Origin: an uncultured Ruminococcus sp.
GTDB lineage: Bacteria; Bacillota; Clostridia; Oscillospirales; Acutalibacteraceae
DNA length: 35,944 nucleotides
Direction: 5' to 3'
NCBI GenBank assembly: GCA_902790475.1
Contig: CADASG010000057.1
Coordinates: 1-35,944, forward strand
The notes below the pieces were generated by a model, which worked only from the letters and a program-made list of their open reading frames with translations, had not been told where the DNA came from and did not search any database. Within the stretch, counting starts at the first letter, position 1; each line of letters starts with the position of its first letter. The position numbers and the translations under genes are program-made. Shown here piece after piece: positions 4,617 to 31,546 of this stretch.

Positions 4617-4631
4617 AGTAAATCAGAGAAC

Positions 4632-4877
4632 ACATTGACGGAGAGAGTAGCAAGATCACGGTACAAAACAGAGAGGCGCGTCGGCGGCTGAAATCGCGCT
4701 TTGTGCGGTTTTTGTGAAGTTCACTCCCGAGTGGCGCACCTGAAAGCTTCTTCGATTAGGGCGCGACGGCTGACCCCGTTACAGGTTCAACGAGCGTCCG
4801 CGAAAGCGGAAATCAGGGTGGTACCACGGAAGCATTTTCGTCCCTGCACAGTTAGACTGTGCAGGGTTTTTATTTTA
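4632..4877 (+). promoter_or_regulatory. T-box leader, Phe (UUC specifier), controlling pheST
   Basis: The conserved T-box sequence AGGGTGGTACCACGG is at 4815-4829. It can pair with the downstream CGTCCCT to form the antiterminator. The competing terminator has the stem CCCTGCACAG (4842-4851)/CTGTGCAGGG (4857-4866) followed by TTTTTATTTTA. In stem I, TTC at 4720-4722, directly before ACTCCCGAGTGG, is the likely specifier codon, matching Phe and the downstream genes. Uncharged tRNA-Phe should therefore stabilise the antiterminator and raise pheST expression. The 5' limit is approximate. Confidence 0.93.
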
Positions 4878-4925
4878 TCACCGGCAAATCAGCGGCAAAA
4901 CCGCATTAACACAGGAGGAAGATAC

Positions 4926-5981
4926 ATGGACAACAGAATCGAGACGCTAAAGCAGGAAATTCTTGACAAGCTCGGTCAAATGACGTCTCTGGACGAATTA
5001 GACAAGCTCAGAGTCGAGTTTTTGGGCAAAAAGGGTAAAGTGACCGCCCTGCTGAAAGGCATGAAGGACTTAAACAATGAAGAAAAGAAATCATTTGGCG
5101 CAGAGGTCAACCGCCTTAAAAGCGCCGCATCTCAGCATATCGATGAGCGCGTCGCCGAATTGAAGCAAAGGGAGATCGAAAAGGAGATCGCCGCGATGCC
5201 GCAGTTTGACATCACAGCGCCTGCTCCGCTGGAGCGCGGCTCCTACCACCCCATCACGCTGGTGCAAAGACAGTGCGAAACGATCTTCAAGTCAATGGGC
5301 TTCACCGTGGAGGATTACCCCGAGGTCGTGACCGACTACGAGTGCTTTGAATCCGTAAACATCCCCAAGCACCACCCTGCGCGCGACATGCAGGACACCT
5401 ATTATCTGGAGAACGGTCAGCTCTTAAAGAGCCAGACCTCCGCAGCCCAGAACGCCATCCTGCGCAAATACGGCAAAAAAATGGCGGAGGACGGCGTGCC
5501 GATCAAGGCGATTTTCCCCGGCCGCTGCTTTAGAAACGAAGCTACCGACGCTTCACACGAAAACACATTTTTCCAGATGGAAGGCATGATGGTAGACAAG
5601 GACATCAGCATTTCCAACCTGATCTTCTTTATGAAAACCATGCTCTCCGAGGTGTTCCAACGCGACGTCAAGGTGCGCCTGCGCCCCGGATTTTTCCCGT
5701 TCGTGGAACCCGGCTTTGAGCTGGACATCAACTGCGAGATCTGCGGCGGCTCCGGCTGCTCGTCCTGTAAGCACAGCGGCTGGCTCGAGCTTTGCCCCTG
5801 CGGAATGATCCACCCCAACGTACTGCGCGAGGGCGGCGTTGATCCCGACAAATACACGGGATTCGCTTTCGGTCTGGGCTTGACAAGACTGGCTATGATG
5901 AAATACAAGGTCAAGGATATCCGCGACCTGAACAGCGGCAGCCTGAAATCGCTGGCGCAGTTTACCGACGACGAAGCGTAA
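4926..5981 (+). CDS. pheS: Phenylalanine-tRNA ligase alpha subunit
   Basis: The 351-residue catalytic alpha subunit of the (alpha-beta)2 enzyme charges tRNA-Phe. An N-terminal coiled-coil tRNA-binding arm (about residues 1-85) precedes the class II core. Motif 2 is visible as GRCFRNEATDASH with FFQMEG, and motif 3 as FGLGLTRLAMMKYKVKD. A Cys-rich insert (CEICGGSGCSSC) lies between them. The ATG at 4926 follows ACAGGAGGAA and starts the usual MDNRIETLK; the open frame runs into the leader, which is not translated. pheT starts 14 bp after the stop. Confidence 0.97.
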   Translation: MDNRIETLKQEILDKLGQMTSLDELDKLRVEFLGKKGKVTALLKGMKDLNNEEKKSFGAEVNRLKSAASQHIDERVAELKQREIEKEIAAMPQFDITAPAPLERGSYHPITLVQRQCETIFKSMGFTVEDYPEVVTDYECFESVNIPKHHPARDMQDTYYLENGQLLKSQTSAAQNAILRKYGKKMAEDGVPIKAIFPGRCFRNEATDASHENTFFQMEGMMVDKDISISNLIFFMKTMLSEVFQRDVKVRLRPGFFPFVEPGFELDINCEICGGSGCSSCKHSGWLELCPCGMIHPNVLREGGVDPDKYTGFAFGLGLTRLAMMKYKVKDIRDLNSGSLKSLAQFTDDEA

Positions 5982-5994
5982 AGGAGGCAGCGCA

Positions 5995-8361
5995 ATGTTT
6001 TTATCAATGAATTGGATTTCCGATTTTGTGGATCTCAGCGGACTTGACAAGGTAAAGCTGATCCAGCAGTTTTCACTTTCGACCGCCGAGGTCGAAAACG
6101 AGATTTTCTTCAAGGGCTCGGATATCAGCGGAATTGTGGTAGCCGAGATCAAATCTGTCGAAAACCACCCCGAATCAAAAAAGCTGCACCTGCTCAAGGT
6201 GGATACCGGCGAGAACGAGCTGACCGACGTTGTATGCGGCGCTCCCAACGTGCGTGTGGGAATGAAAACCGCATTTGCCAAGGTCGGCGCTAAAATCGGC
6301 GAGATCGAGATAGCTCCCCGTCCCCTGGCAGGAGCCATGAGCTACGGCATGTGCTGCAGCGAGGCTGAGATCGGAATAAGCGACGATCACTCCGGCATCA
6401 TGGATATCACCGACGACGTTGCCAACGGCACCGATATCAAGGAGCTGTACGCGGTAGATGACATCGTTTTTGAGGTGGACAACAAGTCCCTCACCAACCG
6501 CCCCGATCTCTGGGGTCATTACGGCATCGCGCGCGAGTTCGCGGCGCTTGCAGGCAGAGAGCTTAAACCTCTCCCCTCTGAGGATCTTAACGCCTACAGC
6601 GAGCTTGCAAAGGTAGACATGAAGATCGAGGATCCGCTTTGTCAGCGCTATTCCTGCCTCCAGGTAGAGAACATCACCAGAACCGTCAGCCCCGTGAACA
6701 TGCGTATCCGCCTTTTCTACTGCGGAATGCGCGGAATAAACTTCCTCGCCGACCTCACCAACTACCTCATGCTGGAAATGGGTCAGCCCATGCACGCGTT
6801 CGATTCACGCAAGGTCGGCAAGATCCGCATCAAGCGCTTTGACAAGCCCTTCACCTTCCAAACTCTGGACGGCGTGGAGCGCAATATAGACGAAAACACA
6901 CTGATGATCTGCAACGACAACACTCCCGTCGCGATCGCGGGTATCATGGGCGGTCTTGACTCCGAGATCGTTGAGGACACCACTACCCTCACCCTCGAAT
7001 CCGCAACCTTCGACGCGGCTTCCATTCGCAAATCCACCGTTCGTCTTTCACACCGCACCGACGCGTCCATGCGCTATGAAAAGAGCCTTGACCCCGAGAT
7101 GTGCGACGCAGCCATCGCCCGTTTTCTGTATCTGCTCAAGCAGTACGACAGCGGCGTAAAGGTGGTTTCCGCACTCACCGACGAGTACGCTTTCCGTTAC
7201 GACACGGTAAAGCTCAGCTTTGACAAGGCGTTTGTTGACCGCTACACGGGCATTGAGATCGGCAACGACACCATTCTCAAAACCCTTAACAGCCTCGGCT
7301 TCACCGTAACGCTGAACGATGACACCTTTGACGTGACCGTACCCTCGTGGCGCGCCACAAAGGACGTGACCATCAACGCCGACATCATTGAGGAGATCAC
7401 ACGTATCTACGGTTACGATAACTTTGCCGTTCACACCACCCGTTCTCCCCTCTATCCCGTGCGCATGGATACGGTGAAAAACGACGAGGACAAGATCAAG
7501 GACATTTTGGTCAAGCGTTACAGCCTCCACGAGCTCCACTCATACGTTTGGGCATACTCCGACGAGCTGAAATCGCTGGGTATCGAAGTCGAGCCGAATA
7601 TCAAGCTCCTCAACGCCACCAACCCCAACATTGAAACGATACGCAAGTCCATGATCCCCACCCAGCTTTGCCAGATCAAGACAAACGTCGGCTACGCTCC
7701 CGAGTTCGGGATCTTTGAGATTGGCAGAGTGGTAACGGGAATTGACGAAAACGACCTCTGCGTCGAAAAGAAAATGCTCGCGATCTCCCTCTACAGCAAA
7801 ACCGCCGAAGTCAGGGATCTGTACTTTAAGCTGCGCGACATGCTGGCGGTGCTCACCGACGATCTCAAGCACAAAACGCTCGGCTTCCAAAAGACCGAGC
7901 CTGCGCAGGGTTACATCCACCCTGTCAACTGCAACACCATCCTGCTTGACGGCAAGCCCATCGGCTATATCGGTATCGCGCACCCCGTGGTAATGAAAAA
8001 GCTAGACAAGAAGGCTAACGTCGTCTTTGCAGAGCTGGATATGCAGGCGTTTGCAGACGTTAAAAACGCCTCCATCGTCTATGAGGAGCCGTCAAAATTC
8101 CCGCCGATGGATTACGATATCAGCGTAGTCGTGCCCGAGGGCGTGCTGTTCAGCGACCTCGCCGAGAAATGGCAAAACGAAGGCAAGGGGATCTTGAAGA
8201 GCGCCAAGATCGTGGATACCTACGACACCCAAAGCTTCCACAGCGTCACCGTTCGCTTTGAGTTCTCCTCCAACGAACGCACCCTGTCCTCCGCCGAGGT
8301 TCAGGAGATAATGGACAAGGTGATCGCGAATCTGAAAGAAATCAACGTGACCTTGAGATAA
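5995..8361 (+). CDS. pheT: Phenylalanine-tRNA ligase beta subunit
   Basis: The 788-residue beta subunit carries editing and tRNA-binding functions. Residues about 40-150 form the EMAP/OB-like tRNA-binding domain (SGIVVAEIKSVENHPESKKL). The B3/B4 editing module and B5 domain follow, then the catalytic-like core. The C-terminal FDX-ACB anticodon-binding domain starts near residue 695 (KFPPMDYDISVVV). AAAGGAGG precedes the ATG. It shares the T-box transcript with pheS and ends at a strong hairpin terminator. Confidence 0.97.
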   Translation: MFLSMNWISDFVDLSGLDKVKLIQQFSLSTAEVENEIFFKGSDISGIVVAEIKSVENHPESKKLHLLKVDTGENELTDVVCGAPNVRVGMKTAFAKVGAKIGEIEIAPRPLAGAMSYGMCCSEAEIGISDDHSGIMDITDDVANGTDIKELYAVDDIVFEVDNKSLTNRPDLWGHYGIAREFAALAGRELKPLPSEDLNAYSELAKVDMKIEDPLCQRYSCLQVENITRTVSPVNMRIRLFYCGMRGINFLADLTNYLMLEMGQPMHAFDSRKVGKIRIKRFDKPFTFQTLDGVERNIDENTLMICNDNTPVAIAGIMGGLDSEIVEDTTTLTLESATFDAASIRKSTVRLSHRTDASMRYEKSLDPEMCDAAIARFLYLLKQYDSGVKVVSALTDEYAFRYDTVKLSFDKAFVDRYTGIEIGNDTILKTLNSLGFTVTLNDDTFDVTVPSWRATKDVTINADIIEEITRIYGYDNFAVHTTRSPLYPVRMDTVKNDEDKIKDILVKRYSLHELHSYVWAYSDELKSLGIEVEPNIKLLNATNPNIETIRKSMIPTQLCQIKTNVGYAPEFGIFEIGRVVTGIDENDLCVEKKMLAISLYSKTAEVRDLYFKLRDMLAVLTDDLKHKTLGFQKTEPAQGYIHPVNCNTILLDGKPIGYIGIAHPVVMKKLDKKANVVFAELDMQAFADVKNASIVYEEPSKFPPMDYDISVVVPEGVLFSDLAEKWQNEGKGILKSAKIVDTYDTQSFHSVTVRFEFSSNERTLSSAEVQEIMDKVIANLKEINVTLR

Positions 8362-25134: not shown

Positions 25135-25243
25135 GTCGTTAAGGAAAACGATGATAAAAAAACGTCGTTTCTATTGCCCTCACAGTTTTCGGTATTTCTA
25201 TTCTATCTCGCGAAACGCCGACGTTACCAATATACCCGACATC

Positions 25244-25368
25244 AAGTACGCGAGCCAAAAAACGCGTGGAGAAATCTCCTTGGAGGCGAACCGTGGTTCC
25301 CTGTCAGGGAGATTTCTCGACTAAATCACTTCGTGATTTTGCCCTCCGGGCACCGCTCGAAATGACAT
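25244..25368. repeat. P2 palindromic repeat in tandem unit 1
   Basis: GGAGAAATCTCC and CAGGGAGATTTCTCG arms with terminal CGCTCGAAATGACAT. The distal hairpin AATCACTTCGTGATT replaces the one in copies 1 and 2. Confidence 0.75.
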
Positions 25369-25459
25369 CAATAGGAAATGTTGTTTCCATTGCCCTCACA
25401 GTTTTCGGTATTTCTATTCTATATCGCGAAACGCCGACGTTACCAATATACCCGACATC

Positions 25460-25584
25460 AAGTACGCGACCTGAAAAACGCGTGGAGAAATCTCCTTGGA
25501 GGTGAACCGTGGTTCCCTGTCAGGGAGATTTCTCGACTAAATCACTTCGTGATTTTGCCCTTCGGGCATCGCTCGAAATGACAT
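25460..25584. repeat. P2 palindromic repeat in tandem unit 2
   Basis: Same structure as in unit 1 with a few substitutions (GCCCTTCGGGCATCG versus GCCCTCCGGGCACCG). The outer GCCC/GGGC pairing is kept. Confidence 0.75.
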
Positions 25585-25667
25585 GTATAGGAAAACGCGC
25601 AAACTGTGCGAACGTTGTTTTTCTTGTCCGAGTGTTGATTAGAAATATAACGTTTAGTGCAGCAATC

Positions 25668-28033: not shown

Positions 28034-28062
28034 TTGTCAAACGGAGTTAATTTTGGTATAAT
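28034..28062 (+). promoter_or_regulatory. Promoter of the hydrolase-GTPase unit
   Basis: TTGTCA and TATAAT are separated by 17 bp, 43 bp before the hydrolase ATG. Confidence 0.8.
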
Positions 28063-28105: not shown

Positions 28106-28942
28106 ATGGCGAACTCTGTAAAAACAGGAAACGGAATGACGGAATACTTCAGCTTCGGCAGCGGAAACAGGCCGCTGGTGATACTTCCCGGGCTGGGACT
28201 TCAAAGCATAATCCGCTCAAAAAAGAGCATCGAAAGCGCCTACAGCCGCTTTGCGGACGACTACACCGTTTGGGTGCTCGACCGCGTGGATCCCATGCCG
28301 AAGGACTACAGCATCAGGCAAATCGCAGACGACACCGCAGAGGCTATGCAAAAGCTGGATATTTCCGAAGCCAATGTGTTCGGCGCTTCGCTGGGAGGAA
28401 TGATCGCCCAGACTTTAGCGGTTTATCATCCCGGGCTTGTGCGTTCGCTGATCCTCGGCTCTACCCTCGCCCGTTCAAATGAAACAGCCCGTACTCTGGC
28501 ACAGCGGTGGGCTGCAGCCGCCGAAGCACGGGACGGAAACGCCCTGTGCGAAATGATGCTGCCAAAGCTCTACACCGCGCCCTTGGCTGAAAAGCTCAGC
28601 GAGGCTGCCGAGCTTATGCTTGCAGGCGTTACCGACGGGGACTATGACCGATTCGTTACTCAGGCAAAAGCCATCGCCGAATTTGATATTTACGACATGC
28701 TTGACCAAATCCGCGTCCCGGCGCTGGTGATCGGCGTGGAAAACGACCCGGTCGTGACGGGCGAGGCTTCTCTTGAAATAGCCGAAAAGCTCGGCTGTGA
28801 CTGCCATATGTACGGCAGCGAATACGCGCACTGCGTCTTTGACGAGGATCCGGGATACAAGCAGATCCTGTTGGATCAACTGGAAAGCACCTATAGGCAA
28901 CACCGCACAATTCAAGGCGCACGGCTTGCCTATAAAAGCTGA
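28106..28942 (+). CDS. Alpha/beta hydrolase with repeat-derived C-terminus
   Basis: This 278-residue cytoplasmic alpha/beta hydrolase has the oxyanion segment ILPGLGLQS, nucleophile elbow GASLGG (S95), acidic residue ENDPVVTG (D214) and catalytic His EYAHCVF (H242), a complete triad. The substrate is unknown; family members include esterases, haloperoxidase-like enzymes and lactonases. The ATG at 28106 follows AAAGGAG and replaces an in-frame start that overlaps the -35 box. The last 16 or so codons (from about TYRQHRTIQG) are encoded by a 37-bp P1-type repeat unit, so the native C-terminus has been replaced or extended. The next gene's ribosome site follows the stop directly. Confidence 0.85.
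   Translation: MANSVKTGNGMTEYFSFGSGNRPLVILPGLGLQSIIRSKKSIESAYSRFADDYTVWVLDRVDPMPKDYSIRQIADDTAEAMQKLDISEANVFGASLGGMIAQTLAVYHPGLVRSLILGSTLARSNETARTLAQRWAAAAEARDGNALCEMMLPKLYTAPLAEKLSEAAELMLAGVTDGDYDRFVTQAKAIAEFDIYDMLDQIRVPALVIGVENDPVVTGEASLEIAEKLGCDCHMYGSEYAHCVFDEDPGYKQILLDQLESTYRQHRTIQGARLAYKS
28895..28931 (+). repeat. P1 arm inside the end of a coding sequence
   Basis: AGGCAACACCGCACAATTCA plus AGGCGCACGGCTTGCCT is the P1 arm (as at 24638), bounded by its own TATAGGCAA/TTGCCTATA inverted repeat. It is read in frame as the hydrolase C-terminus. Confidence 0.75.
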
Positions 28943-28954
28943 GAGGAGATCGGA

Positions 28955-31546
28955 ATGAAAAAAATCGTCGCAGGCATACTGGCGCACGTTGACTCGGGCA
29001 AAACAACGCTGTCCGAGGCGCTGATGTACTGCTCGGGCAACCTCAGCAAGCTGGGCAGAGTTGATCACGGCGACTCGTTTTTGGATAATTTCGCGCTGGA
29101 AAGGCAGCGCGGCATCACTATTTTTTCAAAGCAGGCGCTGCTCAATTACGGCGATACGCGCTTTACGCTGCTTGACACTCCGGGTCACGTGGACTTTTCC
29201 GCCGAGACCGAGCGCACCCTGCAGATCCTCGACTACGCTGTTTTGGTCATCAGCGGCACCGACGGAGTGCAGAGCCATACGCTGACGCTGTGGAAGCTGC
29301 TCAGCCGCTACAACGTGCCGGTGTTTCTGTTCATCAATAAAATGGATCTTCCCGGCGCGTCGCGCGAGACAGTGTTCACACAGCTCAAAACCAAGCTCAG
29401 CGACTGCTGCGTGGACTTCGGTCAGGAGGACTCAGACGCATTGGAGGAAAATATCGCGCTCTGTCACGAATCACTGCTGGAGCGCTATGAGGAAGGCGCA
29501 CTCGACGATGAAGCCGTTTGTCAGGCTATACGGCACAGGCGCGTGTTCCCCGTTATGTTCGGCTCGGCGCTTAAATTGCAGGGCGTGGAGGAGTTTTTGG
29601 ACTGTCTGAACCGCTTTACTCTCGCTCCGCGCCGCGGCGGCTCCTTCGGCGCGAGGGTGTACAAAATCGGCGAGGACAAGGGCAGCCGTCTGACATACAT
29701 GAAGATCACGGGCGGCACTTTGCGGGTCAGGGACGTGCTTCGCGATCCGCGCGTACCCGACGGCGAAAAGGTCACGGGCATCCGCATTTACTCCGGCGAA
29801 CGCTTCCGCACGGCTGAGACGGCTGAGGCAGGAGATGTGTGCGCCGTTACGGGACTGAGCTTCGCGCGTTCGGGAGACGGTCTGGGCTCGGAGAGCAGCG
29901 CAGTGCAGCCGCTGCTCGAGCCTGTTCTCACCTACAGCGTGCTGCTGCCGAAGGAGATCGACGTCCACACCGCGCTGGCTAAGCTGCGCGTGCTGGAAGC
30001 GGAGGATCCGCAGCTAAACGTCGCCTACAACGAGCGCTACGGTCAGATCCAGCTTAGGCTCATGGGCGATATCCAGTTAGAGGTACTCAAAAGCCTGATC
30101 GCCGACCGCTTCGGCTTTGAGGTCGGCTTCGGCGAGGGCGATATCATATATAAAGAAACCATTGAAAACACCGTGGAGGGCGTGGGACATTTTGAGCCCC
30201 TGCGCCACTACGCCGAGGTGCATCTGCTGCTTAGTCCGCTTCCGCGCGACAGCGGTATTCAGATCAGCACTCAGTGCAGTCAGGACGCGCTGGATAAAAA
30301 CTGGCAGCGGCTGATTTTGACGCACCTGTATGAAAAAACACATTTGGGCGTGCTGACAGGCTCGCCCGTCACCGACATAGCCGTGACGCTTGTCTCGGGC
30401 AAGGCGCACGCCAAGCACACCGAGGGGGGCGACTTCCGTCAGGCTACCTACCGCGCCGTGCGGCAGGGACTGATGAGCGCAAAAAGCGTACTTCTTGAGC
30501 CGTACTATTCGTTCACACTCGAGGTACCTGCCGAAAACGTCGGCAGAGCCATGGCAGACATACAGCGCATGAGCGGAAGCTTTGACCCTCCCCTGCCGAA
30601 CGGCGAGCTCACCGAGCTGACAGGCAGCGCTCCCGTCAGCGCCATGCGCGGCTACACCCGTGAAGTCCTGCAATACACCCACGGCGCAGGCAGACTGTCC
30701 GTTACGCTGAAAGGCTACGAACGCTGCCACAACGCTGATGAAGTGATCGCAAGGTTTGCGTATTCCCCCGAAAACGACACCGATAATCCGTGTGACTCCG
30801 TGTTTTGCTCACACGGAGCCGGACACACGGTCAAATGGAACGAGGTGCCCCGTCACATGCACCTGCCGAGCGCACTAAGCGAAAACAAGCCCCGTACCGA
30901 GGACGCGAGGACGCGTATCAGAAAACGGGTCGCGGAGCAGCGGGACTTCTTCGCCTCCGACAAGGAGCTTATGCGGATCTTTGAACAAACCTACGGTCCG
31001 ATAACTCAGCGCCGAAGGGAAAACGAGCTGCGCCGCCGCTTCAAGCCGCAAAAAAGCGAAAGCGCCGCGCCGCGCAAAGGCAAGCCGGCTCCCTCATACG
31101 ACGGCACCGAGTATGTGCTTGTGGACGGCTACAACGTCATTTTCTCGTGGGACAGCCTCAAAAAAATCGCAGATGAAAATGTTGACGACGCCCGAACCGC
31201 GCTGATAAATATTCTGTGCAATTTTCAGGGCTTTAGAAAATGCGAGCTGATCTTGGTTTTTGACGCGTACAAGGTCAAGGGCGCTGTGCGCGAGGTGGAG
31301 CAGGCAGGCGGCATAAGCATCGTCTACACCAAGGAAGCCGAAACTGCCGATATGTATATCGAAAAGACCGCGCATAAGCTCGCAAAAAACAACCGCGTGA
31401 GGGTCGTTACCTCCGACGGAATGGAACAGCTTATCATCCTGGGCAACGGCGCGCTGCGCGTACCCTCGCGTGCTTTTTACGACGAGGTGAAGCAGGCGGA
31501 GGATGAGATCCGCGAAATAATCAACGCCGACGCACAGGAGCAGTAA
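28955..31546 (+). CDS. TetM-like translational GTPase fused to a Rae1/YacP-type NYN RNase
   Basis: This 863-residue fusion begins with an EF-G/TetM-type GTPase: G1 AHVDSGKTT (10-18), G2 RGITI, G3 DTPGH (74-78) and G4 NKMD (128-131). EF-G domains II, III, IV and V follow to about residue 640; KHTEGGDFRQATYRAVRQG marks domain IV and CSHGAGHTVKWNEV the end of domain V. TetM's drug-displacing YSP loop is not visible there. A charged linker (about 645-715, with RRREN and RRRFKPQK) joins a C-terminal NYN domain (about 720-855): YVLVDGYNVIFSW (D724), LVFDAY (D770), AETADMYIEK (D799) and VVTSDG (D821), the acidic set expected for metal-dependent RNA cleavage. Bacillus Rae1 is a stand-alone NYN RNase that cuts mRNA in the ribosomal A site. 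Starts 12 bp after the hydrolase stop, with GAGAGGAGA ahead. Confidence 0.9.
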   Translation: MKKIVAGILAHVDSGKTTLSEALMYCSGNLSKLGRVDHGDSFLDNFALERQRGITIFSKQALLNYGDTRFTLLDTPGHVDFSAETERTLQILDYAVLVISGTDGVQSHTLTLWKLLSRYNVPVFLFINKMDLPGASRETVFTQLKTKLSDCCVDFGQEDSDALEENIALCHESLLERYEEGALDDEAVCQAIRHRRVFPVMFGSALKLQGVEEFLDCLNRFTLAPRRGGSFGARVYKIGEDKGSRLTYMKITGGTLRVRDVLRDPRVPDGEKVTGIRIYSGERFRTAETAEAGDVCAVTGLSFARSGDGLGSESSAVQPLLEPVLTYSVLLPKEIDVHTALAKLRVLEAEDPQLNVAYNERYGQIQLRLMGDIQLEVLKSLIADRFGFEVGFGEGDIIYKETIENTVEGVGHFEPLRHYAEVHLLLSPLPRDSGIQISTQCSQDALDKNWQRLILTHLYEKTHLGVLTGSPVTDIAVTLVSGKAHAKHTEGGDFRQATYRAVRQGLMSAKSVLLEPYYSFTLEVPAENVGRAMADIQRMSGSFDPPLPNGELTELTGSAPVSAMRGYTREVLQYTHGAGRLSVTLKGYERCHNADEVIARFAYSPENDTDNPCDSVFCSHGAGHTVKWNEVPRHMHLPSALSENKPRTEDARTRIRKRVAEQRDFFASDKELMRIFEQTYGPITQRRRENELRRRFKPQKSESAAPRKGKPAPSYDGTEYVLVDGYNVIFSWDSLKKIADENVDDARTALINILCNFQGFRKCELILVFDAYKVKGAVREVEQAGGISIVYTKEAETADMYIEKTAHKLAKNNRVRVVTSDGMEQLIILGNGALRVPSRAFYDEVKQAEDEIREIINADAQEQ

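Follow-up and report, generated by a model that had tools for sequence, protein, structure and literature searches.

In the available parts of the articles on it, the nuclease Rae1 (YacP) is described as an endonuclease of the ribosomal A site whose access may rise upon stalling (PMC6613710, PMC10100781); it can attack mRNA in the A site, and cutting there readies ribosomes for tmRNA-SmpB (PMC12320835). Known targets of Rae1 are S1025 (PMC11780869) and the bmrCD leader ORF (in a paper listed by PMC12320835), and an efp mutant of B. subtilis regains swarming upon loss of rae1 (PMC6613710). For the tetracycline-protection GTPase TetM, the available part of another article describes a functional C-terminal extension after domain V and suggests that loop III is key for displacing tetracyclines (PMC4750697). 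Proteins that unite both types were reported from ten Clostridiales species in the available part of Atkinson 2015 (PMC4342817), where an antibiotic-resistance mechanism based on a ribonuclease (RNase) and the cutting of rRNA were suggested. Here we describe such a gene, located at 28955..31546 on the plus strand of a 35,944-nucleotide stretch of DNA (contig CADASG010000057.1, hereafter the window) from an uncultured Ruminococcus sp. It has in common with the Tet-NYN fusions seen in that source the Tet-type GTPase, the C-terminal YacP-like NYN domain in the same frame and the occurrence in Clostridia; the supposition of a preliminary description of the window that the architecture may already be known is borne out by this earlier report.

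Genomes that carry the fusion nearly always lack an intact stand-alone rae1, and in some of them remnants of that gene persist in its old place. Within the literature searched, this evidence for a displacement of rae1 by the fusion is new. The exclusion of the stand-alone gene, the decay of its locus and the connection to the A site through Rae1 go beyond the available part of Atkinson 2015 (PMC4342817), and no functional study of the fusion was found in the open-licence PMC literature, a scope that leaves out subscription papers, including the main Rae1 papers. Judging from the sequences, it is most likely that the fusion now fulfils the function of Rae1.

Distribution of the fusion and apparent displacement of stand-alone rae1

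The class sample consisted of 393 genomes, with NYN_YacP in 250 and a GTPase match (threshold 1e-45) in 191, and a fusion was defined as a GTPase frame of at least 780 amino acids. The fusion is present in 127 genomes, i.e., 126 and the window's own, and NYN was matched in all 126 others; a NYN frame was listed for 80 of these and comprised at least 700 amino acids in every case. All 20 NYN matches picked for long frames (at least 822 amino acids) include the GTPase, with 47-67% identity over 807-970 aligned columns, one of them being cut at a contig end. An assembly artefact or a frameshift, for which the preliminary description had proposed to look for absence of the fusion from relatives, is ruled out by the 127 class genomes and the 20 long-frame relatives. 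Two fusion genomes (G246 and G120) have a stop within the GTPase match; the in-frame stop in the GTPase half of the G246 homologue (L184) could be decay or a sequencing error. GTPase frames of 600-779 amino acids occur in 20 genomes, of which 12 have a listed stand-alone NYN frame shorter than 260 amino acids, two have NYN with no listed frame, one (G291) looks like a contig-edge split and five are devoid of NYN. In the same genus, NYN was found in 19 of 36 genomes, including two where it is split at contig ends (G023, G024), and in 12 of the 19 that are at least 90% complete; the best GTPase match in same-genus genomes devoid of NYN had an E value of 1e-22 to 1e-32, with one at 1.7e-49. A scan of contigs for two G-domain motifs, for which the patterns were poor, gave 80 loci, both halves being present at 13, and the named fusions (these 13 plus those of Monoglobus and Agathobacter) all belong to Clostridia.

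Whether fusion genomes lack stand-alone rae1, a check that the preliminary description had called for, can be answered in the affirmative at two levels. At the level of genomes, intact stand-alone rae1 is absent from 126 of the 127. When six genomes (five with multiple matches, one with a weak match) were re-examined, only G340 was found to contain both an intact fusion and an intact stand-alone gene; G426 has the fusion plus a broken second NYN copy, and the second matches in G176, G230 and G264 are below the cut-off. The other fusion genomes have one NYN match each in the class-wide NYN search, in which 8 of 9-13 candidates were scored in some genomes and which is independent of the script used for the locus analysis below. 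The window's genome, which is 94% complete, contains no second NYN_YacP. Fisher's test of fusion versus stand-alone gene gives p ~4e-25, or ~4e-23 when seven ambiguous genomes are removed, for genomes that are not independent of each other.

At the level of the locus, rae1 is situated between rlmB and sigH in stand-alone genomes. RlmB was identified by TIGR00186; the remaining genes (e.g., sigH and mrnC) were given presumptive names from the B. subtilis gene order and from their appearance. Among 24 stand-alone genomes, sigH is downstream of rlmB in 19, and the script detected rae1 between the two in 17; in the other two (G143, G163) rae1 is beside rlmB by coordinates and was missed by the script probably because of its overlap rule. 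For fusion genomes, 67 were searched and loci were obtained for 55, the set being chosen rather than random and including G426 and G340 in knowledge of their second matches. sigH is downstream of rlmB in 28 of the 55 loci, and 27 of these 28 slots contain no intact rae1, the exception again being G340. Gaps of at least 90 bp are present in 21 of the 27, and 10 of the 21 (in G426, G081, G154, G400, G133, G192, G172, G355, G195 and G247) contain a Rae1 match in sense orientation, with scores up to 54.7 bits. A trace was accepted when its score exceeded 23 bits as well as the scores of all 40 shuffles, which preserve base counts only; the maximum for reversed gap sequences was 22.3 bits. The empty slots and decayed remnants mean that free rae1 was lost from its old place, in some carriers recently, and the spread of remnants over families f42, f47, f71, f77 and f104 suggests multiple losses. 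Fused and stand-alone states occur in different genomes of families f42, f43, f48 and f67 (the stand-alone state in f48 is the apparent fission in G265 described below), according to a hand-transcribed family table that omits G177, for which no frame was listed, and contig-edge rows such as G212. In the window's genome, the best rlmB match is on contig C19, with no NYN or SigH within ~1.5 kb downstream.

The fused protein and its two halves

The open reading frame (ORF) translation of the window gives one uninterrupted frame from ATG to TAA that encodes the GTPase, a C-terminal extension, a linker and the nuclease. Its features are as follows (source of each assignment in brackets).

28944..28949, plus strand: AGGAGA, likely ribosome-binding site, 5 nt upstream of the ATG (sequence inspection)
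28955..31546, plus strand: entire fusion gene, 863 amino acids plus stop (ORF, Pfam, alignment)
28967..29614, plus strand: G domain, residues 5-220, with G1 AHVDSGKTT, G3 DTPGH and G4 NKMD (Pfam GTP_EFTU, 42 fused rows)
29657..30133, plus strand: EF-G domains II and III, residues 235-393 (Pfam EF-G_D2, EFG_III)
30137..30484, plus strand: domain IV, residues 395-510 (Pfam EFG_IV)
30179..30226, plus strand: domain IV loop I, GVGHFEPLRHYAEVHL, residues 409-424 (alignment of fused and unfused relatives)
30413..30439, plus strand: domain IV loop III, KHTEGGDFR, residues 487-495, replacing the TetM tip PVSTPADFR (alignment)
30488..30733, plus strand: domain V, residues 512-593 (Pfam EFG_C)
30734..30865, plus strand: C-terminal extension, residues 594-637, with conserved S615, F617, C618, G621, W628 and H636 (alignment)
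30866..31105, plus strand: linker, residues 638-717, variable apart from a short motif near E671 that is conserved (alignment)
31106..31531, plus strand: NYN_YacP / Rae1-type nuclease domain, residues 718-859 (Pfam, PDB YacP match)
31124..31417, plus strand: four Asp codons, D724 (31124), D770 (31262), D799 (31349) and D821 (31415) (NYN alignment)

The Pfam domains follow each other in series, with GTP_EFTU at residues 5-220 (E 6.7e-49), EF-G_D2 at residues 235-310 (25.3 bits, slightly below the 27-bit cut-off), EFG_III at residues 322-393 and NYN_YacP at residues 721-859 (161.6 bits versus a cut-off of 24.6). Key residues of motifs G1-G5 are kept in 93-100% of 42 fused rows, and none of the NYN domains aligned, 57 fused and 28 stand-alone, lacks any of D724, D770, D799 and D821. 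The preliminary description, which had claimed an EF-G/TetM-type GTPase with intact G motifs continuous, without frameshift, with a C-terminal NYN domain holding four aligned Asp residues, was correct in each of these points. In a 19-row alignment of fusions, columns without variation occur in the G motifs, in two loops of domain IV, at the Asp residues of NYN and in portions of the extension.

The nuclease half is, by its sequence, of the Rae1 type with the complete Asp set, and the PDB structures closest to it are those of YacP (5mq8/5mq9, E 2.4e-22). The NYN domain is homologous to that of B. subtilis Rae1/YacP and has an identical set of Asp residues, but stand-alone Rae1 is small (frames of 169-216 amino acids) and encoded next to rlmB, whereas here the domain forms the C-terminus of an 863-amino-acid protein with an EF-G-like GTPase, encoded on contig C57 at an unrelated locus and not between rlmB and sigH. 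Among six same-genus proteins the mean identity is 0.72 for NYN, 0.68-0.73 for parts of the GTPase and 0.39 for the linker; amino-acid identities were used in place of the ratio of nonsynonymous to synonymous substitution rates (dN/dS) because between 7 and 13 of the 15 pairs in each region had a saturated or undefined dS. The segment 638-720 measures 67-88 residues in most fused rows (36 of 42) and is longer, with 103-201 residues, in the remaining six.

The GTPase half belongs by sequence to the EF-G/Tet class and is outside NCBI's curated tetracycline-protection family. Its closest PDB structures are TetO (E 1.1e-73) and TetM (E 2.2e-71), and it is ~31% identical to the products of tet(M)/tet(W) in phage records. 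The window's fusion protein (P0001) scores 416.8 bits against NCBIfam NF012153 tet_protect, with a cut-off of 775, and 277.1 bits against the EF-G model TIGR00484, with a cut-off of 659.4. The best tet_protect E value among 19 aligned fusions is 1.2e-134, which corresponds to an estimated ~450 bits, so none of them seems to reach the cut-off. In the alignment, TetM YYSPVSTPADFR is opposite AHAKHTEGGDFR of the fusion, with AHAKH where TetM has YYSPV. K487, H488, T489 and D493 show no variation among 63 relatives (42 fused and 21 unfused); the same is true of several residues of GHFEPLRHYAEV, and loop I, GVGHFEPLRHYAEVHL, is mostly kept in fused and unfused relatives and differs from that of the EF-G of the same genome. 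This EF-G-like protein is a separate one of 702 amino acids with an EF-G-like loop; two rows of the loop comparison with genome EF-G (L137, L162) were wrong ORFs and were disregarded. The alignment therefore confirms that KHTEGGDFR replaces loop III of TetM, and the doubt about drug displacement that had been expressed in advance stands, given the different tip loop and the scores below the cut-off.

In the extension, S615, F617 and G621 are present in all fused and unfused relatives, C618 in 98 and 100%, W628 in 100 and 81% and H636 in 95 and 100% of them, respectively. Compared with Tet(M)/Tet(O) (PDB 3j9y, 4v6v), the fusion has the same five-domain EF-G-like body and an extension after domain V, but other domain IV loops, its own S/F/C/G/W/H pattern in the extension, an added nuclease and a sub-cut-off score. 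By tree, loops and C-terminal extension it is of the same subfamily as unfused Tet-like GTPases of Bacillota, Bifidobacterium and Collinsella; the GTPases of Ligilactobacillus salivarius megaplasmids are placed in the subfamily only by their match to residues 1-636. In public records, a fused protein of Agathobacter rectalis (L287) and an unfused one of L. salivarius pMP118 (L288) are named tetracycline resistance ribosomal protection proteins.

Evolutionary history

One clade of the GTPase tree contains all fused rows, with support 100* in a first tree, where three of six outgroup rows (L137, L146, L162) were on a branch 4.06 long and are probably wrong ORFs, and 100/100 in a repeat with a single outgroup row. 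Given the outgroup used, the unfused Bacillota GTPases are outside this clade. The trees indicate common ancestry of the fused GTPases and the unfused subfamily. Nested within the fused clade are three unfused proteins of Bifidobacterium and Collinsella (L096, L099, L101), an apparent case of transfer to Actinomycetota followed by nuclease loss, and a constraint holding the fused rows together was not rejected (approximately unbiased, AU, p 0.30). In the NYN tree, whose root was not inferred, 27 stand-alone domains form one clade (100/97), and the stand-alone NYN of G265 (L286, 5088-5501) is placed among the fused domains, with AU p 0.42 for the fused domains as one clade. No GTPase remnant was found within ~5 kb of this NYN, and the G265 genome has an unfused GTPase elsewhere; the G265 NYN is an apparent fission product of a fused gene.

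The 21 unfused relatives terminate 1-23 residues past residue 637, i.e., approximately at the start of the fusion's linker, which means that the nuclease was added at a pre-existing C-terminus. A likely history is that a stand-alone EF-G/Tet GTPase with its own ribosome-related role gained a Rae1/YacP nuclease at its C-terminal end, a single event in Clostridia being the simplest assumption; the fusion would have rendered the rae1 gene between rlmB and sigH redundant, after which it decayed.

Surroundings of the gene

The fusion gene starts 12 nt downstream of a predicted alpha/beta hydrolase gene, ahead of which there is a near-consensus promoter-like site (11/12, with TG) at 28034-28062; the two genes may be transcribed together in this genome. 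No ORF family (at least 100 amino acids, within 7 kb) occurs at more than 8 of 43 fusion loci, and positions vary. The G+C content at 28501-31500, the region of the fusion, is 0.57-0.59, and 0.43-0.56 in the remaining 1500-bp steps of the window. A tandem repeat of 216 bp (two copies, 94% matches) is located at 25160-25594. A T-box leader (Rfam RF00230, 115 bits) is present upstream of pheS and pheT in 4626-8361; the annotated start of the pheS ORF (4701) overlaps it, and the real start is probably further downstream.

Two phage records (MT835563, MT835514) contain the fusion. For MT835563 (L230, "Bacteriophage sp.") phage origin was rejected on account of the bacterial housekeeping genes around the fusion, which encode prolyl-tRNA synthetase, SIR2 and NAD(P)H-hydrate dehydratase; judging from these genes, the record resembles a bacterial contig. 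When viral contigs were searched with the C-terminal alignment, 22 pattern matches were obtained and no relative.

Alternative readings and a possible mechanism

We consider it probable, with considerable room for doubt, that the fusion is the host's Rae1 in fused form, which replaced rae1 and cuts mRNA in the A site by the action of the GTPase followed by that of the nuclease. Several observations weigh against this. The counts of presence and absence carry no correction for phylogeny; the threshold of 23 bits was set once the first slot matches had been viewed, the weakest matches are marginal (23.5 bits in G247, 23.9 bits in G195), and 11 of the 21 gaps of at least 90 bp contain no rae1 trace. 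The conserved R at 835, E at 840 and N at 730 of stand-alone Rae1 are less well kept or replaced in fused forms, and target choice may therefore differ. NYN is missing in 17 of 36 same-genus genomes (7 of the 19 at least 90% complete), so the fusion is dispensable. Five genomes with a GTPase of the subfamily (G126, G344, G234, G087, G084) have no NYN match, and the GTPases of Bifidobacterium and Collinsella have no attached NYN; the persistence of the subfamily without the nuclease implies a role of the GTPase that is independent of it. Finally, there is a single A site for both domain IV and NYN, and any handover must be sequential.

The most serious alternative, which we nevertheless deem unlikely, is that the GTPase, an EF-G-like factor with a housekeeping or condition-specific role, serves as a mere ribosome tether, with NYN doing Rae1's job alone and the GTP cycle being irrelevant to cutting. 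The separate existence of each half in other genomes, the long and variable linker and the retention of the Rae1 Asp set in the fused NYN would all be expected under this explanation; the occurrence of the fusion in many families, with a single apparent fission (G265) and a single apparent loss of NYN (the Actinomycetota lineage), speaks against it. It is improbable that the protein is a Tet(M)-like drug-protection factor with an added RNase, as suggested in the available part of Atkinson 2015 (PMC4342817). TetO and TetM are indeed its closest solved structures, and public records call both the fused and the unfused homologue a TetM/TetW/TetO/TetS family protein, but the tet_protect scores fall short, the tip of TetM loop III is replaced by one whose KHT is invariant in the 63 relatives, and the gene that the fusion replaces is rae1. 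The latter is known to encode an mRNA nuclease and is not known as a drug-protection gene.

Slightly less probable again is a scenario where rRNA or tRNA is processed by the NYN half on ribosomes under assembly, with the GTPase as an assembly or quality-control factor. The position of rae1 next to the rRNA maturation genes rlmB and mrnC would fit it, as would an older proposal of rRNA and tRNA maturation by NYN_YacP proteins, cited in the available part of PMC4342817, but later work on B. subtilis Rae1 reports, in its available parts, mRNA cutting that depends on translation (PMC10100781, PMC12320835). There is very little to recommend a role as an effector of phage defence, with mRNA being cut on ribosomes during infection: the patchy occurrence in the genus (NYN in 19 of 36) would suit such a function, but PADLOC has no match for the fusion or three neighbours, no conserved neighbours were found, and it is a chromosomal housekeeping gene whose place is vacated when the fusion is present.

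We now return to the reading of the fusion as the host's Rae1. EF-G/TetM-type factors insert domain IV into the A site. In the simplest, sequential scheme, the GTPase half would bind ribosomes with a free or paused A site, domain IV being inside it; upon GTP hydrolysis domain IV would be withdrawn, and the nuclease on its ~80-residue tether would then enter the vacated A site and cut the mRNA, either in cis or at the A site of a neighbouring ribosome. The cut would leave a non-stop complex for rescue by tmRNA/SmpB, and SmpB was found in the window's genome. In principle the length of the flexible tether, near 28 nm by estimate when fully stretched, suffices for this. We infer that the protein binds ribosomes and cuts in the A site in this order, and that it may sense stalls; that the GTPase drives the delivery of the nuclease to stalled ribosomes, as the preliminary description had supposed, is a plausible hypothesis. 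A bolder and doubtful version, put forward tentatively, is a 'clear or cut' factor, whose GTPase would probe paused ribosomes and could set them moving again with an EF-G-like push; if the ribosome stayed stuck, the vacated A site would be passed to the tethered Rae1, with mRNA cutting and tmRNA rescue to follow.

The fusion is of interest for the route of Rae1 into the A site and for its choice of ribosomes. It joins Rae1 to a GTPase of the A-site type in carriers that have lost the free nuclease, so that delivery can be tested directly on a single polypeptide. There is also a consequence for annotation: members of the subfamily are named tetracycline resistance proteins, yet the sequence evidence speaks against that role, and the names given to the A. 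rectalis and L. salivarius proteins are probably misannotations. If the 'clear or cut' idea were true, one clostridial protein would have taken over, in many families, work that is done in Bacillus by a nuclease on its own.

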